Below, one piece after another: positions 36,742 through 44,038 of a stretch of 52,638 bases of DNA. The DNA comes from Deltaproteobacteria bacterium (GTDB lineage: Bacteria > Desulfobacterota > DSM-4660 > Desulfatiglandales > HGW-15). How positions within the stretch are numbered: the stretch's first letter is position 1; each line of letters starts with the position of its first letter. Below the pieces are notes generated by a model. The model was not told where the DNA came from, made no database searches, and saw only the letters and a list, made by a program, of their open reading frames with translations. The stretch spans positions 1 through 52,638 of the forward strand of contig JAFGFM010000129.1 in the NCBI GenBank assembly GCA_016931115.1. Direction: 5' to 3'. Made by a program: the position numbers and the translations under genes.

Positions 36742-37965
36742 ATGCCAGAGACAGAAGCGCTCAAGAAAAGAATTAAGGCCCTTGAAGATCAGCTGAAAAG
36801 GGCAGAGGATGAACTCAGACGATCCAAAATAGGGGATCATCTGGGCAGCTATGCCGGAATTGTAGCACATGATCTGAATAACCTCCTTGCCGGTATTATT
36901 ACCTATCCTGAGCTTATATTGATGGAACTCTCCGAGGATAACCCCTTAAGAAAACATGCCTGTGCAATAAAGCTGGCAGGCGAAAAGGCTGCGAATATTG
37001 TCCAGGATCTCATGATGCTCACGCATGATTCTGCTGCTGCCACCCATACCCTTAACCTTAATGAGATAATTTCTGAACTTAAGAAAAGCCCTGATTTTAA
37101 GGCAATGAGGGCTGGTCACCCTGATGTAAAGGTTGTATTTGATCTTGAGATACCCCTTGATAATATCAAGGGTGCCTCCGCGCAAATAACAAAATCGGTG
37201 ATGAATATATTGCGTAATTCGGTTGAATCGATAAACGGACAGGGCAGGGTCACTGTATCCACCGCAAACAGGAGACTTAAAGCCCCTGAAAGGGGATATA
37301 AGCAGATGATTGCAGCAGGAGATTATGTCACGGTCACCATTCAGGATACTGGTAATGGCATGACCGAAAAGGATATTTCAAGGCTTTTTGAACCTTTTTA
37401 TACTAAAAAGGTGATGGGAAGAGGCGGGTCAGGGCTAAGCATGGCTGTTGTATGGGAAACCATCAGGCAGGTCAATGGCTATATCAATATAATCAGCGCT
37501 GAGGACAGGGGGACAACCTTTACCCTTTACTTCCCTGTAACCGGTGATAATGACAGAAAAAAGGCGCCTCATGATGAGATGGTTAATTGCAGGGGAAACG
37601 GGGAATCCATGCTTATAGTAGATGATATGGCTGAACAGAGAGAACTCGCATGCGCTATCCTGAAAAGGCTTGGATATTCAGTCTGCTCTGTACCCTGCGG
37701 TGAAGAGGCAGTGGAGTATCTCAGGGCTAAAAAGGCGGACATGGTCATACTGGACATGATCATGGACCCGGGCATAGACGGCCTTGAGACCTTCAAAAGG
37801 ATATCTGAATTCAGACCGGATCAGAGGTTTGTTATTGTAAGCGGTTATGCTGAGACCGAAAGGCTTAAGGAGATACAGAGAATGGGCTGCCATTTCTGTA
37901 TTAAAAAACCCTATTCTATCGCTGAAATCGGTGAGGCTGTCAAAAAGGGGCTTGGCGTCCTGTAA
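36742..37965 (+). CDS. Compact hybrid histidine kinase (HisKA-HATPase-REC) behind UPF0210
   Basis: 407 residues with no PAS or other sensor domain; only a 35-residue coiled coil precedes the phospho-acceptor His43 (IVAHDLNNLLAGI). HATPase has a weak N box (SVMNILRNSVESI), DTGNGM, LFEPFYTKK and GRGGSGLSMAVVW, where the usual GTGLGLA is GSGLSMA. The receiver (about 290-405) carries Asp338 (VILDMIMDPG) and the lysine in IKKPYS. The ATG is 5 bp downstream of UPF0210 with no clear ribosome site, implying coupling. Being sensorless, it may take its signal from a partner such as the ACT protein; this is inference. Confidence 0.88.
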   Translation: MPETEALKKRIKALEDQLKRAEDELRRSKIGDHLGSYAGIVAHDLNNLLAGIITYPELILMELSEDNPLRKHACAIKLAGEKAANIVQDLMMLTHDSAAATHTLNLNEIISELKKSPDFKAMRAGHPDVKVVFDLEIPLDNIKGASAQITKSVMNILRNSVESINGQGRVTVSTANRRLKAPERGYKQMIAAGDYVTVTIQDTGNGMTEKDISRLFEPFYTKKVMGRGGSGLSMAVVWETIRQVNGYINIISAEDRGTTFTLYFPVTGDNDRKKAPHDEMVNCRGNGESMLIVDDMAEQRELACAILKRLGYSVCSVPCGEEAVEYLRAKKADMVILDMIMDPGIDGLETFKRISEFRPDQRFVIVSGYAETERLKEIQRMGCHFCIKKPYSIAEIGEAVKKGLGVL

Positions 37966-38086: not shown

Positions 38087-39301
38087 ATGAACAATAATCC
38101 GGAAAAACAAATTCAAGCTGAAAACCCTCTTCTCATGGAATTTGATCACAGCAGATTCAGAGATTTCATTGCCGGAAAAGAAGAGTGGCTCATGAAACAG
38201 ATACTCTTTTATGCAAAAAGGCATGACTACTCAAGGTACACATCCACACTCATGGAGGCCTGGCGTTTATCCATTTCAGGGATATCATATAACCTTATCA
38301 CATCCTCTTCACACGACCTTGAACTCTCTCCTGATGAAGATTATACAAGAGACCCTGCCGCAGCCTTTGGAATACTTGAGGCAAAGCGTCACAGGGAGCG
38401 TGGTGTCAGTCTCTCCATGTTTCTGGGGCTTCTGAAATACTACAGGCAGTCTTACATGGACCTGATTGAACAGGAGATTGAGCCTGGCGCATACAGAGAC
38501 AAATGCAGGATCAGGACTGAGAGATTTTTTGACCGGATGGAGCTTGGTTTCTGTACAGAGTGGTGCTCTCAGACTGAAAACGCAAAATTAAAGGAACTAC
38601 AATCTAAAAACAGAGAGATACTCAATGAAAAAAACAGGTATCTCTCCATCTTTGAAACCATACATGCCCCTGTTGTACTGATAAATGAAGAGAACAGGGT
38701 GGAAAATTATAACCAGGCATGGAATGAACTCTTTGAGGAGTCATCCATACCCGGTTCCATTTATTATAACAGGGATATGAAACCCGGTAAAAAGGCGCCC
38801 GGATTCCTGGATGAAATCCTGCCTTTATTACAGAATGATGTCAATGATTATACCCTTGAAAAGAAACTGGTTACTAAAAATGGGGTAAGATTTTTCCAGA
38901 TACGAATAAAAAGGATGCTTGATATCAGTGAAAAGTACCATGGCATGGTTATCATACTTAATGATATTACCGACATTAAAAAGGCTGAAAAGGACAGGGT
39001 ATACAAGGAAAAGCTGGAAGGTGTGCTTGAGATGGCAGGTGCAGTATGCCATGAAATAAATCAGCCGCTTCAGGTTATTATGGGGCAGTCAGAGATTATC
39101 AAGCTTGGATCAGGCAAGGATAGCCCCATTAATAAAAATCTTGATATCATAACTGCTCAGATAGAAAAGATGGGCGAGATAACTAAAAAGCTTATGAACA
39201 TAACGAAATATGAGACAAAGGCTTATCTTACAAAGACAATAATAGATATTGAAAAGGCATCACCTGAAAAGGGCAGAAATTCTACAGAATATATTGATTA
39301 A
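38087..39301 (+). CDS. HATPase-less histidine kinase-like protein (helical-PAS-HisKA)
   Basis: 404 residues. The N-terminal 165 residues are helical (SRFRDFIAGKEEWLMKQILF, HRERGVSLSMFLGLLKYYRQ), reminiscent of RsbR-type sensor domains. A PAS domain follows (about 190-300) and then HisKA with His322 (GAVCHEINQPLQVIMGQ). The protein ends about 60 residues after the histidine (KLMNITKYETKAYLTKTIID), with no ATP-binding domain. It therefore cannot phosphorylate itself alone and would need an HATPase in trans or serve as a phosphotransfer or scaffold protein. The end looks family-like rather than a sudden break. Confidence 0.85.
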   Translation: MNNNPEKQIQAENPLLMEFDHSRFRDFIAGKEEWLMKQILFYAKRHDYSRYTSTLMEAWRLSISGISYNLITSSSHDLELSPDEDYTRDPAAAFGILEAKRHRERGVSLSMFLGLLKYYRQSYMDLIEQEIEPGAYRDKCRIRTERFFDRMELGFCTEWCSQTENAKLKELQSKNREILNEKNRYLSIFETIHAPVVLINEENRVENYNQAWNELFEESSIPGSIYYNRDMKPGKKAPGFLDEILPLLQNDVNDYTLEKKLVTKNGVRFFQIRIKRMLDISEKYHGMVIILNDITDIKKAEKDRVYKEKLEGVLEMAGAVCHEINQPLQVIMGQSEIIKLGSGKDSPINKNLDIITAQIEKMGEITKKLMNITKYETKAYLTKTIIDIEKASPEKGRNSTEYID

Positions 39302-39348
39302 GTTATTCTTACAGTTTTCTTCTGTTTACAACTTAAGGAGAAGTAATA

Positions 39349-39792
39349 ATGGGCAATCATACGATATTACTGGTAGATGATGACTCCGGTGTAAGAAACG
39401 CAATTGAAAGAATCCTGCGCAATGAACCATATCAAAGGATGTATGCATCAGATGCAATTGAAGCCCAGAAATATATCAGGAGAAATAAGGTTCATCTGGT
39501 TATTACTGATATTATGATGCCAGGCATTATGGGAAACCCGATCCAGATTAAGCAGATTTTTGACAATGTAATAAAAAATGCGATTGATGCAATGGAGAAG
39601 TCAGAGCAGAAACAACTGACCATTGAGATATTTGAAAAGGATGGATTTATAGTATTAAAGTTTTCAGACACAGGAGAAGGTATTCCTAAGGAAAATATCG
39701 CAAAGGTATTTGAACCTGGTTTTACGACAAAGCCGATAGGCAAAGGTTCCGCAGTTATTATTTGCCTCCCTGTTAAAATAGAAATTGAATAG
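39349..39792 (+). CDS. Receiver/HATPase chimera with two internal deletions
   Basis: 147 residues. Residues 1-60 are the first half of a receiver (ILLVDDDSGVRNAIERIL, phospho-Asp54 in VITDIMMPGIMG). Immediately after MG comes the N box of a kinase ATPase domain (NPIQIKQIFDNVIKNAIDAM), then DTGEGIP and KVFEPGFTTKPIGKGS. After GKGS (residue about 131) the GTGLGL box and about 30 residues are missing, and the last strand VIICLPV ends the protein. Thus the receiver lacks its Thr/Lys half and the ATPase lacks its G2 box. The frame is intact with a good AAGGAG ribosome site. Likely inactive as either domain; a domesticated fragment is the alternative. Confidence 0.8.
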   Translation: MGNHTILLVDDDSGVRNAIERILRNEPYQRMYASDAIEAQKYIRRNKVHLVITDIMMPGIMGNPIQIKQIFDNVIKNAIDAMEKSEQKQLTIEIFEKDGFIVLKFSDTGEGIPKENIAKVFEPGFTTKPIGKGSAVIICLPVKIEIE

Positions 39793-40175: not shown

Positions 40176-41795
40176 ATGTCAATATTAGTTGCAGATGATT
40201 CATCTGTATCAAGAGAGTTACTTGCGAAAACTCTTAGGAAATGGGGATTTGATGTATTTACTGCAAATAATGGTCTTGAAGCCCTTGAGGTTTATAAAAA
40301 CAACAGGATCAATATTGTCATTACCGACTGGGTAATGCCCAATATGGACGGGCTTACACTATGTGAAGAAATCCGAAAATTCATTAAGAACAGCTATACT
40401 TATATCATCATTATTACAGCAAAAGATCAGAGTTCAGATATCAAAGAAGCGTTAGATAAAGGGGCTGATGAATATATTACAAAGCCTATTGATATGGAAA
40501 GGCTGAGGGTAAGCCTGAAAACCGCACGCCGTATAATATCTCTATCTGAAAATCTGAATCTTGAAATCGATAAAAACAAGCTGCTCCTTGAAAACATGAA
40601 AGAAGGATTATTAAGGGTAGATCACGAAGGGATACTAACCTTCGTTAACGATAGCCTCTGTCAGATGCTCGGATATACCAGAGAAGAACTAATAGGAAAA
40701 AAAATCCTCTCCATCCATGAAAAAGAGGATAATGAGATAGCTGAACGGAAGTTGAATAGGAGAAGGGAGGGAATAGGTGATTCGTATGAGTTGAATTATA
40801 TAACTAAAGAAGGCGGTGTAATCCCTACTCTTGTATCAGCAAAACCTATTTTTAATTCATCAGGGCAGCATGATGGGACTGTTGTTGTTATTACAGATAT
40901 CTCAAAAATCAAACAGGCAGAACAGGAAAGAAAATTGATCGAGGCACAGCTCAGGCAGTCTGATAAAATGGCCTCTATCGGTCAGCTTGCAGCAGGCGTG
41001 GCCCATGAGATAAATAATCCTACAGGTTTTGTAAGCAGCAATCTGAATACATTATCCACCTACATAAAAGACTACAATATAATTATTGACCGGTATGAGG
41101 CCCTTGTAAAGCAGCTGGAAAACAGCGGGAAATCAGATGATTTTGCTGATTTTCTGCAAGAGATCAAAGAGCAGGAGGATAATATGGATATCGGTTTTTT
41201 AAAAGACGATATCTCCCAACTGATACATGAGAGCCTTGAGGGCACCGAGAGGATCAAAAAGATAGTGCAGGATTTAAAGGATTTTGCGCACCCTGGTGAT
41301 GATAAACCCAAGTATGCAGATATTAACAGGTGTATTGACTCTACCCTTAATATTGTATGGAATGAGATCAAATATAAGGCGCAGGTTAAAAAAGAATATG
41401 GTGATTTACCTGAAGTACTCTGTTTCCCACAGCAGCTCAATCAGGTCTTTGCAAATATCCTGGTCAATGCTGCTCAGGCCATTACTGAGCAGGGTGAGAT
41501 CAGCATAAGGACAAGTCTGTCAGATGAAAATATTGAGATCACAATAAGTGATACCGGATGCGGAATACCAAAAGAAAGCCTGACAAAGATATTTGACCCC
41601 TTTTTTACAACCAAGGATGTTGGTAAAGGAACAGGCCTGGGGCTCAATGTGGCTTATAATATTGTAAAAAAACATAATGGAAAAATATCTGTAGAAAGTG
41701 AAGTAGGGTGTGGTACAACATTTACTATACTCGTTCCTGTAAATAATACCGATGAAAGCTTGAGTGCCAGTACTTCTGGGAAGGATTCTGTTTAA
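40176..41795 (+). CDS. Receiver-PAS-histidine kinase
   Basis: 539 residues. Receiver 1-120 ([20 protein letters not shown], Asp51 in [12 protein letters not shown], lysine in ITKPID), PAS 130-255 ([20 protein letters not shown]), HisKA with His277 ([20 protein letters not shown]). A long helical insert of about 80 residues precedes [15 protein letters not shown], and the HATPase (about 400-525) has [15 protein letters not shown] and [11 protein letters not shown]. All catalytic residues are present. The order with the receiver at the N-terminus suggests it is itself controlled by another kinase, so it can link neighbours in a relay. Confidence 0.94.
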
Positions 41796-41823: not shown

Positions 41824-43167
41824 ATGGAATTAAAGTATAAACATACAATCATGGTTGTTGATGATGAGGTGCCTATTACCAAGACCCTTAATAGACTGTT
41901 GCGAAAAGAGGGGTTTGGTGTAATCGAGGCAAACAGCGGTGCGGATGCCCTGGAGATATTAGGCAAGCTTGAAAAACCTGTGTCAGGTATTATTTCTGAT
42001 CAGCGTATGCCCGGTATGACAGGGTCACAATTAATGGAAAAGGTAAAAAAGATAGTGCCTGATGGTTTCAGGATACTGCTTACCGGCTTTGCCGATATTA
42101 ATGCCATTACTGATGCCCTGAACCTCGGGCAAATCCACAGATACATAACAAAGCCGTGGAACGATGCCGAGCTTATTTTCCATATACGAGAGGCATTGTA
42201 TCAATATGAACTAATCCTTGAAAACAAAAGGCTTAACAATCTGGTAAAAAAGCAAAATCTGGAGCTGAAGAAGATAAACAAATCCCTTGAACAAAAGGTT
42301 GAAGAGAGGACCAGGGAAATTCAGGTAAAAAACCAGGAGCTTGAACAGGGCCTTTATAACACTGTAAGGGCATTTGCATCACTGGTGGATAATAGCTCGC
42401 CTGCTATGGAAGGGCATGGAAGGCGTGTCAGCCTTATGTCAAAACAGCTGGCCCAGGCATTGAAACTCTCTGAAATAGAAATAATGAATGTGGAGATTGC
42501 AGCTCTGTTGCATGACATCGGTAAAATTGGCCTTCCTGAAAGGTTATTTTTTATTGATAGCTCAAAAATGTCAGAAGAGGAGAAAGGATTATATAATAAT
42601 CATCCTGAAGAGGGTCAGGGTGTGGTAAAGTTTATACACAAACTTGATCATGTGGGGCTGTTAATCAGGTCACATCATGAGAGATATGATGGCAGAGGCT
42701 TTCCGGATCAGCTCAGCGGGGATCTCATTCCACTGGAATCACAGATTATATCGGTGGCAGACAGATATGACAAGATCGTTCACCTTGGTATAGACAAAGA
42801 AAAATGCATTAAGGATTATCTCAGGGAGAGAAATATTACTCAGGACCATTTTGCTCCTGAAGCGCTTATTAAGGCAGCAGCAGCTTTTTATATTAAAAAA
42901 AATGCATTTATCGAGTTTGCGCCGGATGTTGTTAAGGTCTTTCTTAATTATATAGAAAAACAGGGGGTAAATGATGAGGATGAAAAAGAGATACCGGTAG
43001 AAAAAATTATTGCAGGAATGATACTTTCAAGATCCCTCTATACAACAAATGGCCGATTTTTACTCCCATATAACACCAAACTGACACCAGACCTTGTAAA
43101 CAAGCTGAAGGCGCTCCAGCAGCGTAACCCGATAATTGGCAATATCTATGTGAAAAAGAAAATATAA
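41824..43167 (+). CDS. Receiver-HD-GYP cyclic-di-GMP phosphodiesterase, RpfG-like
   Basis: 447 residues. Receiver 6-125 (Asp59 in ISDQRMPGM, lysine in ITKPWN), a coiled coil (140-180) and an HD-GYP domain (about 185-345): GHGRRVSLMSKQLAQALKLS, HDIGKIGLPE with metal residues His230-Asp231, then HHERYDGRGFPDQLSGDLIP. The GYP signature reads GRGFP, a common variant. An extra 100-residue C-terminal domain follows (AGMILSRSLYTTNGRFLLPY) of the type often found at the end of such proteins. It should hydrolyse cyclic di-GMP when phosphorylated and is the clearest output protein of the cluster. Confidence 0.93.
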   Translation: MELKYKHTIMVVDDEVPITKTLNRLLRKEGFGVIEANSGADALEILGKLEKPVSGIISDQRMPGMTGSQLMEKVKKIVPDGFRILLTGFADINAITDALNLGQIHRYITKPWNDAELIFHIREALYQYELILENKRLNNLVKKQNLELKKINKSLEQKVEERTREIQVKNQELEQGLYNTVRAFASLVDNSSPAMEGHGRRVSLMSKQLAQALKLSEIEIMNVEIAALLHDIGKIGLPERLFFIDSSKMSEEEKGLYNNHPEEGQGVVKFIHKLDHVGLLIRSHHERYDGRGFPDQLSGDLIPLESQIISVADRYDKIVHLGIDKEKCIKDYLRERNITQDHFAPEALIKAAAAFYIKKNAFIEFAPDVVKVFLNYIEKQGVNDEDEKEIPVEKIIAGMILSRSLYTTNGRFLLPYNTKLTPDLVNKLKALQQRNPIIGNIYVKKKI

Positions 43168-43204: not shown

Positions 43205-44038
43205 GTGGAGAAGAAAAAAACAATATTGATCGTCGATGATGAAGAGTACGTTATAAACAGCCTTAAACGCATGCTGCACAGGGACGGCTACAGGATTTTG
43301 ACAGCCCTGAGCGCTGAGGAGGGCTATAAAATAGTGAGTGAAAACAACGTTCAGCTTATCATGTCCGATCAGAGGATGCCAGGCGAAAGCGGCACCGAAT
43401 TCTTAGCTAAAATCAAGGTAGATTTTCCGGATATAATTAGAACAATCATCTCAGGTTATACAAATGTGGATTCCATAACCGAGTCTATCAATAAGGGGCA
43501 TATCTATAAATATTTTAATAAACCCTGGGATGAAAATAACCTGAGGCTGGAGATAAAGCAGTGTTTTGAACAGTATGAATTAATAAGGAAGAACCGGGAA
43601 CTTAATGAACTTATAGTGAAAAAAAACGAAGAGCTGGAACATATCAATGATGAACTGGTAAGGATAAACACAAACCTGGAATCAATAGTGCATGAAAGGA
43701 CAAAAGACCTTGAGATACAGAATAAGGCACTGGAATTGTTCCGTGCAATTATTGAAGATATGCCTCTTCCGGTGATTGGCATAAGCTCAGACGGCATGAT
43801 AGTGATGAGAAATAAAAAGGCACTGGATATAACTTTTGGCAATGCTGGGTTTGAGGTTGGTAATTACATCTCTGATTGTTTCCCCAGTTATTTAAATGAA
43901 CACATTGACAGGACAATCAAAGAAGGCGAATTAGATGTGATGAGTGATTGCCCTGTCATGGGCACAAATTTTAAAATATTTATTGCCCCGCTCATTGGTC
44001 AATTCAAGGGAAAAGGTGTTACTCTGATATTCGTATGA
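43205..44038 (+). CDS. Receiver with coiled coil and PAS-like domain, no output enzyme
   Basis: 277 residues from GTG at 43205 (AAGGAG 10 bp upstream). Receiver 1-125 (ILIVDDEEYVINSLKRMLHR, Asp55 in MSDQRMPGE, lysine in FNKPWD), coiled coil 125-190 (IVKKNEELEHINDELVRINT) and a PAS-like domain 190-275 (IIEDMPLPVIGISSDGMIVM). The receiver and linker are similar to the HD-GYP protein just upstream, but the HD-GYP domain is replaced by PAS. It therefore probably acts by binding another protein, perhaps competing for the same kinase. Confidence 0.88.
   Translation: MEKKKTILIVDDEEYVINSLKRMLHRDGYRILTALSAEEGYKIVSENNVQLIMSDQRMPGESGTEFLAKIKVDFPDIIRTIISGYTNVDSITESINKGHIYKYFNKPWDENNLRLEIKQCFEQYELIRKNRELNELIVKKNEELEHINDELVRINTNLESIVHERTKDLEIQNKALELFRAIIEDMPLPVIGISSDGMIVMRNKKALDITFGNAGFEVGNYISDCFPSYLNEHIDRTIKEGELDVMSDCPVMGTNFKIFIAPLIGQFKGKGVTLIFV

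Follow-up and report, generated by a model that had tools for sequence, protein, structure and literature searches.

A gene for a HisKA protein that lacks an HATPase domain, followed on the same strand by a gene in which half a receiver is fused to part of an HATPase, raises the question whether such a pair is one kinase divided over two proteins, the decaying remains of a kinase and its regulator, or neither. The pair lies within a stretch of 52,638 nucleotides that was analysed as a whole (hereafter the window; Table 1). Taken together, our data make it likely that the 404-residue HisKA protein (HisKA404) is an intact member of a family acting in trans and that its 147-residue neighbour, the chimera, is a deletion remnant; this joint judgement does not include the phosphorelay role that is discussed below.

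Table 1. Features of the HisKA404 region, with positions in the window.
Feature	Position	Strand	Remarks
HisKA-HATPase-REC hybrid kinase	36742..37965	+	Directly upstream of HisKA404; resembles CckA models; candidate phosphodonor
HisKA404 gene, 404 aa	38087..39301	+	N-terminal module, PAS, HisKA (DHp) and conserved tail; without HATPase
N-terminal module of HisKA404, aa 1-175	38087..38611	+	No Pfam match; common to other signalling proteins of the phylum
PAS domain of HisKA404, aa 184-296	38636..38974	+	Pfam; AlphaFold2 model
HisKA domain of HisKA404, aa 315-376	39029..39214	+	Pfam, E 3e-8
Phospho-acceptor His322 of HisKA404	39050-39052	+	H-box His, in CHEINQP
Conserved tail of HisKA404, aa 371-392	39197..39262	+	Y375, T377, Y380, I385, D387, I388; predicted beta hairpin; replaces HATPase
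Shine-Dalgarno AAGGAG of chimera ORF	39335..39340	+	Read from the sequence
Chimera ORF, 147 aa	39349..39792	+	Most likely what deletions left of a REC-HisKA-HATPase gene
Receiver half of chimera, aa 1-59	39349..39525	+	Acidic pocket and phospho-Asp retained; second receiver half missing
HATPase N box, G1, F box to GKGS, aa 60-134	39526..39750	+	Pfam and comparison with L030, L031
Last HATPase strand, AVIICLPVKIEIE	39751..39789	+	Follows GKGS directly; about 28 residues including G2 lost
Cys-rich ORF, 114 aa	39823..40167	+	Absent from sister species
REC-PAS-HisKA-HATPase kinase	40176..41795	+	First gene of cluster kept in sister species
REC-HD (HD-GYP-like) response regulator	41824..43167	+	Pfam domains
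REC protein with C-terminal extension	43205..44038	+	Homologue in G069 (L172) directly precedes intact chimera parent

HisKA404 and the HATPase-less HisKA family

A sequence-only reading of this DNA had described HisKA404 as a PAS-HisKA protein with His322 and no ATPase domain, and both the open reading frame and the Pfam scan, which finds PAS and HisKA and no HATPase, agree with this. Compared to an orthodox HisKA histidine kinase, the HisKA domain with its phospho-acceptor His is present and the C-terminal HATPase_c domain is absent. The AlphaFold2 model (mean pLDDT 84.6) shows the PAS domain and a helical hairpin, after which comes a short beta hairpin; the DHp helical hairpin with the phospho-His is present in the monomer, and Foldseek places the model close to the solved PAS-DHp kinases 4gcz and 3a0r. 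Judged by its sequence, the N-terminal region (aa 1-175) is an unnamed, putatively sensor-like module. Beyond the genus, 20 genomes of the phylum contain matches to it of 31-55% identity, fused to various signalling proteins, HATPase kinases included; it has no match among the viral contigs searched.

Relatives of HisKA404 in other genomes of the order end at the same place. A pattern search with the full 404 residues found no close relatives, and the family search was begun from an 11-row alignment. Among one-per-species genomes, 281 coding stretches encode a relative, a count obtained with H-box or tail patterns and thus biased toward members with these features. Of 297 phylum genomes, 49 gave a match in a profile search that required neither the H box nor the tail, and all loci from it with a readable open reading frame stop 0-21 residues past the tail, without an HATPase. 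Cultured species such as Desulfosarcina widdelii and Desulfospira joergensenii are among the carriers of a family gene. From the extracted sequences 106 distinct proteins were obtained, 104 of which end 69-93 residues past the phospho-His; the exceptions are one with an HATPase (a weak match, 32 bits) and one with a longer end. Pfam recognizes HisKA in 46 of 46 family members analysed, a receiver in eight and an HATPase in none. HisKA404 itself ends within about 100 residues of its His, after the conserved tail, as is characteristic of the family. When 147 HisKA regions (92 columns), 43 of them from HATPase-bearing kinases, were placed in one tree, the HATPase-less proteins fell on one side of a branch with support 100/99; this supports a single origin but does not prove it, given the small number of aligned positions and the unlike ways in which the HATPase-less and HATPase-bearing sets had been selected.

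HisKA404 is thus an intact member of an unnamed HATPase-less HisKA family, and not half of a broken kinase. The family is one bacterial group, mainly found in Desulfobacterota, and is widespread; its presence in roughly one in six genomes sampled from the phylum, together with the conserved tail, suggests that the loss of the ATPase is old and stable and does not reflect decay. Such proteins are often annotated as histidine kinases despite missing the part that makes a kinase. HisKA proteins without HATPase are a recognized category in archaea ('possible incomplete histidine kinase' or 'HisKA, no HATPase'), and P2CS counts them as phosphotransfer proteins (PMC5847659, PMC2716373). HisKA404 has the corresponding composition, with a HisKA domain and neither HATPase nor receiver, and shares with these proteins the arrangement of sensor domains followed by a C-terminal HisKA with a conserved His. 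In contrast to the archaeal proteins, the family of HisKA404 is bacterial, mainly from Desulfobacterota, and carries a conserved tail after the DHp domain. No description of the family or of this tail was found in the open-licence papers searched, and although the category is known, both appear to be undescribed in that literature.

The tail follows the consensus Y-x-T-x-x-Y...K-I-[IV]-D-I and takes the place of the ATPase domain; in the AlphaFold2 model it forms a beta hairpin at the position from which a kinase would continue into its ATPase domain. Across 46 sequences Y380, I385, D387 and I388 never vary and Y375 and T377 do so only rarely; the full set of invariant residues is C, H, Q, P, Y, I, D and I. 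Mean entropy in the same sequences is 1.27 bits for the tail, versus 2.79 for the PAS domain and 2.61 for the residues past the tail. As the tail is conserved though the ATPase is absent, it may well have a function of its own.

Selection on HisKA404 was assessed by comparison of the genome under study (G000) with the sister species (G001), the sole other genome of the genus that was searched. The orthologue in G001 is 90% identical, has the same end and likewise lacks an HATPase, and it occurs without the chimera. The whole gene has a dN/dS ratio of 0.109 and the HisKA domain plus tail one of 0.096, similar to the intact neighbouring genes that start at 40176 (0.101) and 41824 (0.097); the gene is therefore under purifying selection and not in decay.

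A probable role for HisKA404 in trans

Without the domain that makes phospho-His from ATP, HisKA404 must work in trans. Its likely role is that of a sensor-gated phosphotransfer or phosphatase protein, perhaps together with the hybrid kinase encoded directly upstream. HisKA404 would fold as a PAS-DHp dimer that ends in the beta-hairpin tail, and His322 would receive a phosphoryl group from, for example, the receiver of this hybrid kinase and hand it to the receivers of the neighbouring response regulators; the N-terminal and PAS domains would control the transfer. The phosphate source and the targets of HATPase-less HisKA proteins are a biochemical question that the family raises.

The reading that we favour, though tentatively and by analogy, is that HisKA404 is a phosphorelay protein comparable to ChpT of Caulobacter and Spo0B of Bacillus. 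Both are phosphotransferases with a DHp-type four-helix bundle that carry the phosphate on a His residue. ChpT obtains its phosphate from the hybrid kinase CckA and does not autophosphorylate with ATP (PMC3433190); similarly, the kinase upstream of HisKA404 resembles CckA models. Differences are evident as well, as ChpT retains an atypical ATPase-like domain where HisKA404 has a short tail, and HisKA404, in contrast to both ChpT and Spo0B, brings along PAS and N-terminal modules of its own.

A HATPase-REC hybrid kinase is the upstream neighbour of the family members at L026 and L029, as in the window, but an HATPase gene on the same strand directly adjoins just 13 of 90 family members, which speaks against the relay. 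A receiver-only gene adjoins eight of the 90 and a second HATPase-less gene 12. With similar reserve we consider that HisKA404 may not be a relay protein, and may instead dephosphorylate response regulators under sensor control or form mixed dimers with a complete kinase; these roles are about as likely as the relay. The intact H box with its conserved E and Q would suit such a role, most family members are orphans (61 of 90 have zero two-component genes within three genes), and HisKA-only proteins of archaea have been suggested to act as phosphatases (PMC5847659); the hybrid kinase and several receivers that adjoin HisKA404 in the window speak against it.

Of the 13 HATPase neighbours, nine are hybrids. 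Hybrid kinases seemed over-represented among these neighbours (Fisher p 5e-5, relative to a background of 3/37 that is biased and partly truncated), a claim that was dropped because of these flaws and since five of the eight intact HATPase proteins in the window are hybrids already. Between the two species, the upstream hybrid kinase has a dN/dS of 0.284, versus 0.04-0.11 for its neighbours. HATPase-less HisKA genes are paired with a second, different copy at L074, L095, L106, L110, L113, L133 and L136.

It is also conceivable, though we think it unlikely, that the tail is a docking element with which an HATPase-less sensor recruits, in trans, the ATPase domain belonging to another kinase. If so, one kinase could serve several interchangeable sensor proteins.

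The chimera as a probable deletion remnant

The gene that starts 47 bp after HisKA404 had been read as half a receiver fused to the N box, G1 and F box of an HATPase, with the missing G2 box arguing against ATP hydrolysis. Pfam bears out the fusion, with a Response_reg match over profile positions 1-57 of 111 (aa 6-62) and an HATPase_c match over positions 1-69 of 111 (aa 62-128). Both halves have their best relatives in one pair of proteins, L030 (391 aa, genome G032) and L031 (394 aa, genome G069), each of which consists of a receiver, a HisKA-like region and an HATPase and which together define a parent type of about 390 residues. In contrast to these complete proteins, the chimera has neither a complete receiver nor a complete HATPase. 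Relative to both, about 213 residues are missing in frame between MPG in the receiver and GNP in the HATPase, and a further 28 between two GKG[ST] words, so that GKGS is followed directly by the last strand and G2 is lost. Alignment with the undeleted proteins thus corroborates the jump and the argument against ATP use, as well as the proposal that the jumps coincide with short repeated words (MPG / LPGIMG and GKG[ST]). At the protein level, recombination between such short homologies thus fits as an explanation of the jumps.

The chimera is therefore, as far as can be told from these alignments, most likely what remains of a REC-HisKA-HATPase gene after two in-frame internal losses. The parent type occurs in two related genomes; searches of G000 and G001 gave no intact parent, and neither did one of 297 genomes of the phylum at E 1e-50, a set that held no positive control. 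A parent in the cluster of the window is plausible, as the parent gene in G069 clusters with homologues of the window genes that start at 40176, 41824 and 43205 (L172). The chimera illustrates the erosion of tandem receiver-kinase genes through in-frame deletion, and such remnants call for caution before they are called new architectures. The parent-type protein of G069 (L031:1402-2583) has an Asn in place of the phospho-His (VNNLNNPL), and may thus be a kinase without its own phospho-acceptor.

The sister species provides a second view of the site. The chimera is absent from G001, and the gap before the next gene encodes PDWNEGTTFTISLPVKTGDDLQV, which corresponds to an HATPase end of about 22 codons (L020:9424-9495); a motif of this kind was obtained in 0 of about 20,000 shuffles. 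At the DNA level it scores 42 against the end of the REC-PAS-HisKA-HATPase gene and 23 against the end of the chimera, so that it documents the erosion of an HATPase gene at this site, though not surely of the parent of the chimera; it may come from another gene. This fossil lies six codons past the stop of the HisKA gene, in the same frame.

Could the chimera have been kept as a small regulatory protein, such as a decoy that binds the DHp domain of HisKA404 or of a neighbouring kinase? Its frame of 147 codons is open despite two deletions, the Shine-Dalgarno sequence is strong, which makes translation probable, and signature residues of both domains are retained; the chimera may thus be recent or still retained. 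We nevertheless consider this function rather unlikely. The same architecture was expected in at least two species if the chimera had been retained, but its full-length sequence matches only itself among 99 genomes, with the sister species and 98 other genomes searched all lacking it, and a plasmid search with the chimera region gave no match. Moreover, the receiver half carries 17 unique changes versus 7 and 8 for its counterparts of the parent type, and the HATPase part 14 versus 7 and 13; in this comparison, which has no outgroup, the excess hints at relaxed constraint. A single-sequence fold of the chimera, made with no alignment, has a pLDDT of 50 and is uninformative in this respect.

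An assembly error is very unlikely. The assembly is a draft of 240 contigs, but the words shared at the junctions are only about 10-13 bases long, shorter than the usual assembly k-mers, and an eroded HATPase gene is found at the site in the sister species too. We give even less credence to the proposal that an ordinary kinase and its regulator once stood here and that the two genes are their decaying parts. The chimera and the fossil in the sister species do show decay at the site, but this does not extend to HisKA404, which has the full length of its family, is conserved across the phylum and has a dN/dS of 0.11; the HATPase, moreover, is absent family-wide.

Phospho-His and ATPase can reside on separate proteins, as in the split kinase CheA3/CheA4 of Rhodobacter sphaeroides (PMC3591291), and HisKA404 likewise carries its phospho-His without an ATPase; in contrast to that system, the analysis identified no complete partner ATPase for HisKA404. 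As the chimera has neither an intact receiver nor, without G2, a complete ATP site, it very probably does not supply the ATPase that HisKA404 lacks. That the two proteins form the halves of one working kinase is accordingly the least probable explanation: the genes are adjacent, on the same strand and complementary in domains, but the chimera lacks G2 and a complete ATP lid, HisKA404 is full length for its family with the low dN/dS given above, the sister species keeps the orthologous HisKA gene without the chimera, and no such neighbour is found beside other family members.

The 114-aa open reading frame that follows the chimera is, like the chimera, absent from G001. It contains the Cys motifs CPSC, ECPGYC and CNALCEC and has no Pfam or NCBIfam match; relatives with 37-65% identity are present in four distant genomes of the phylum.
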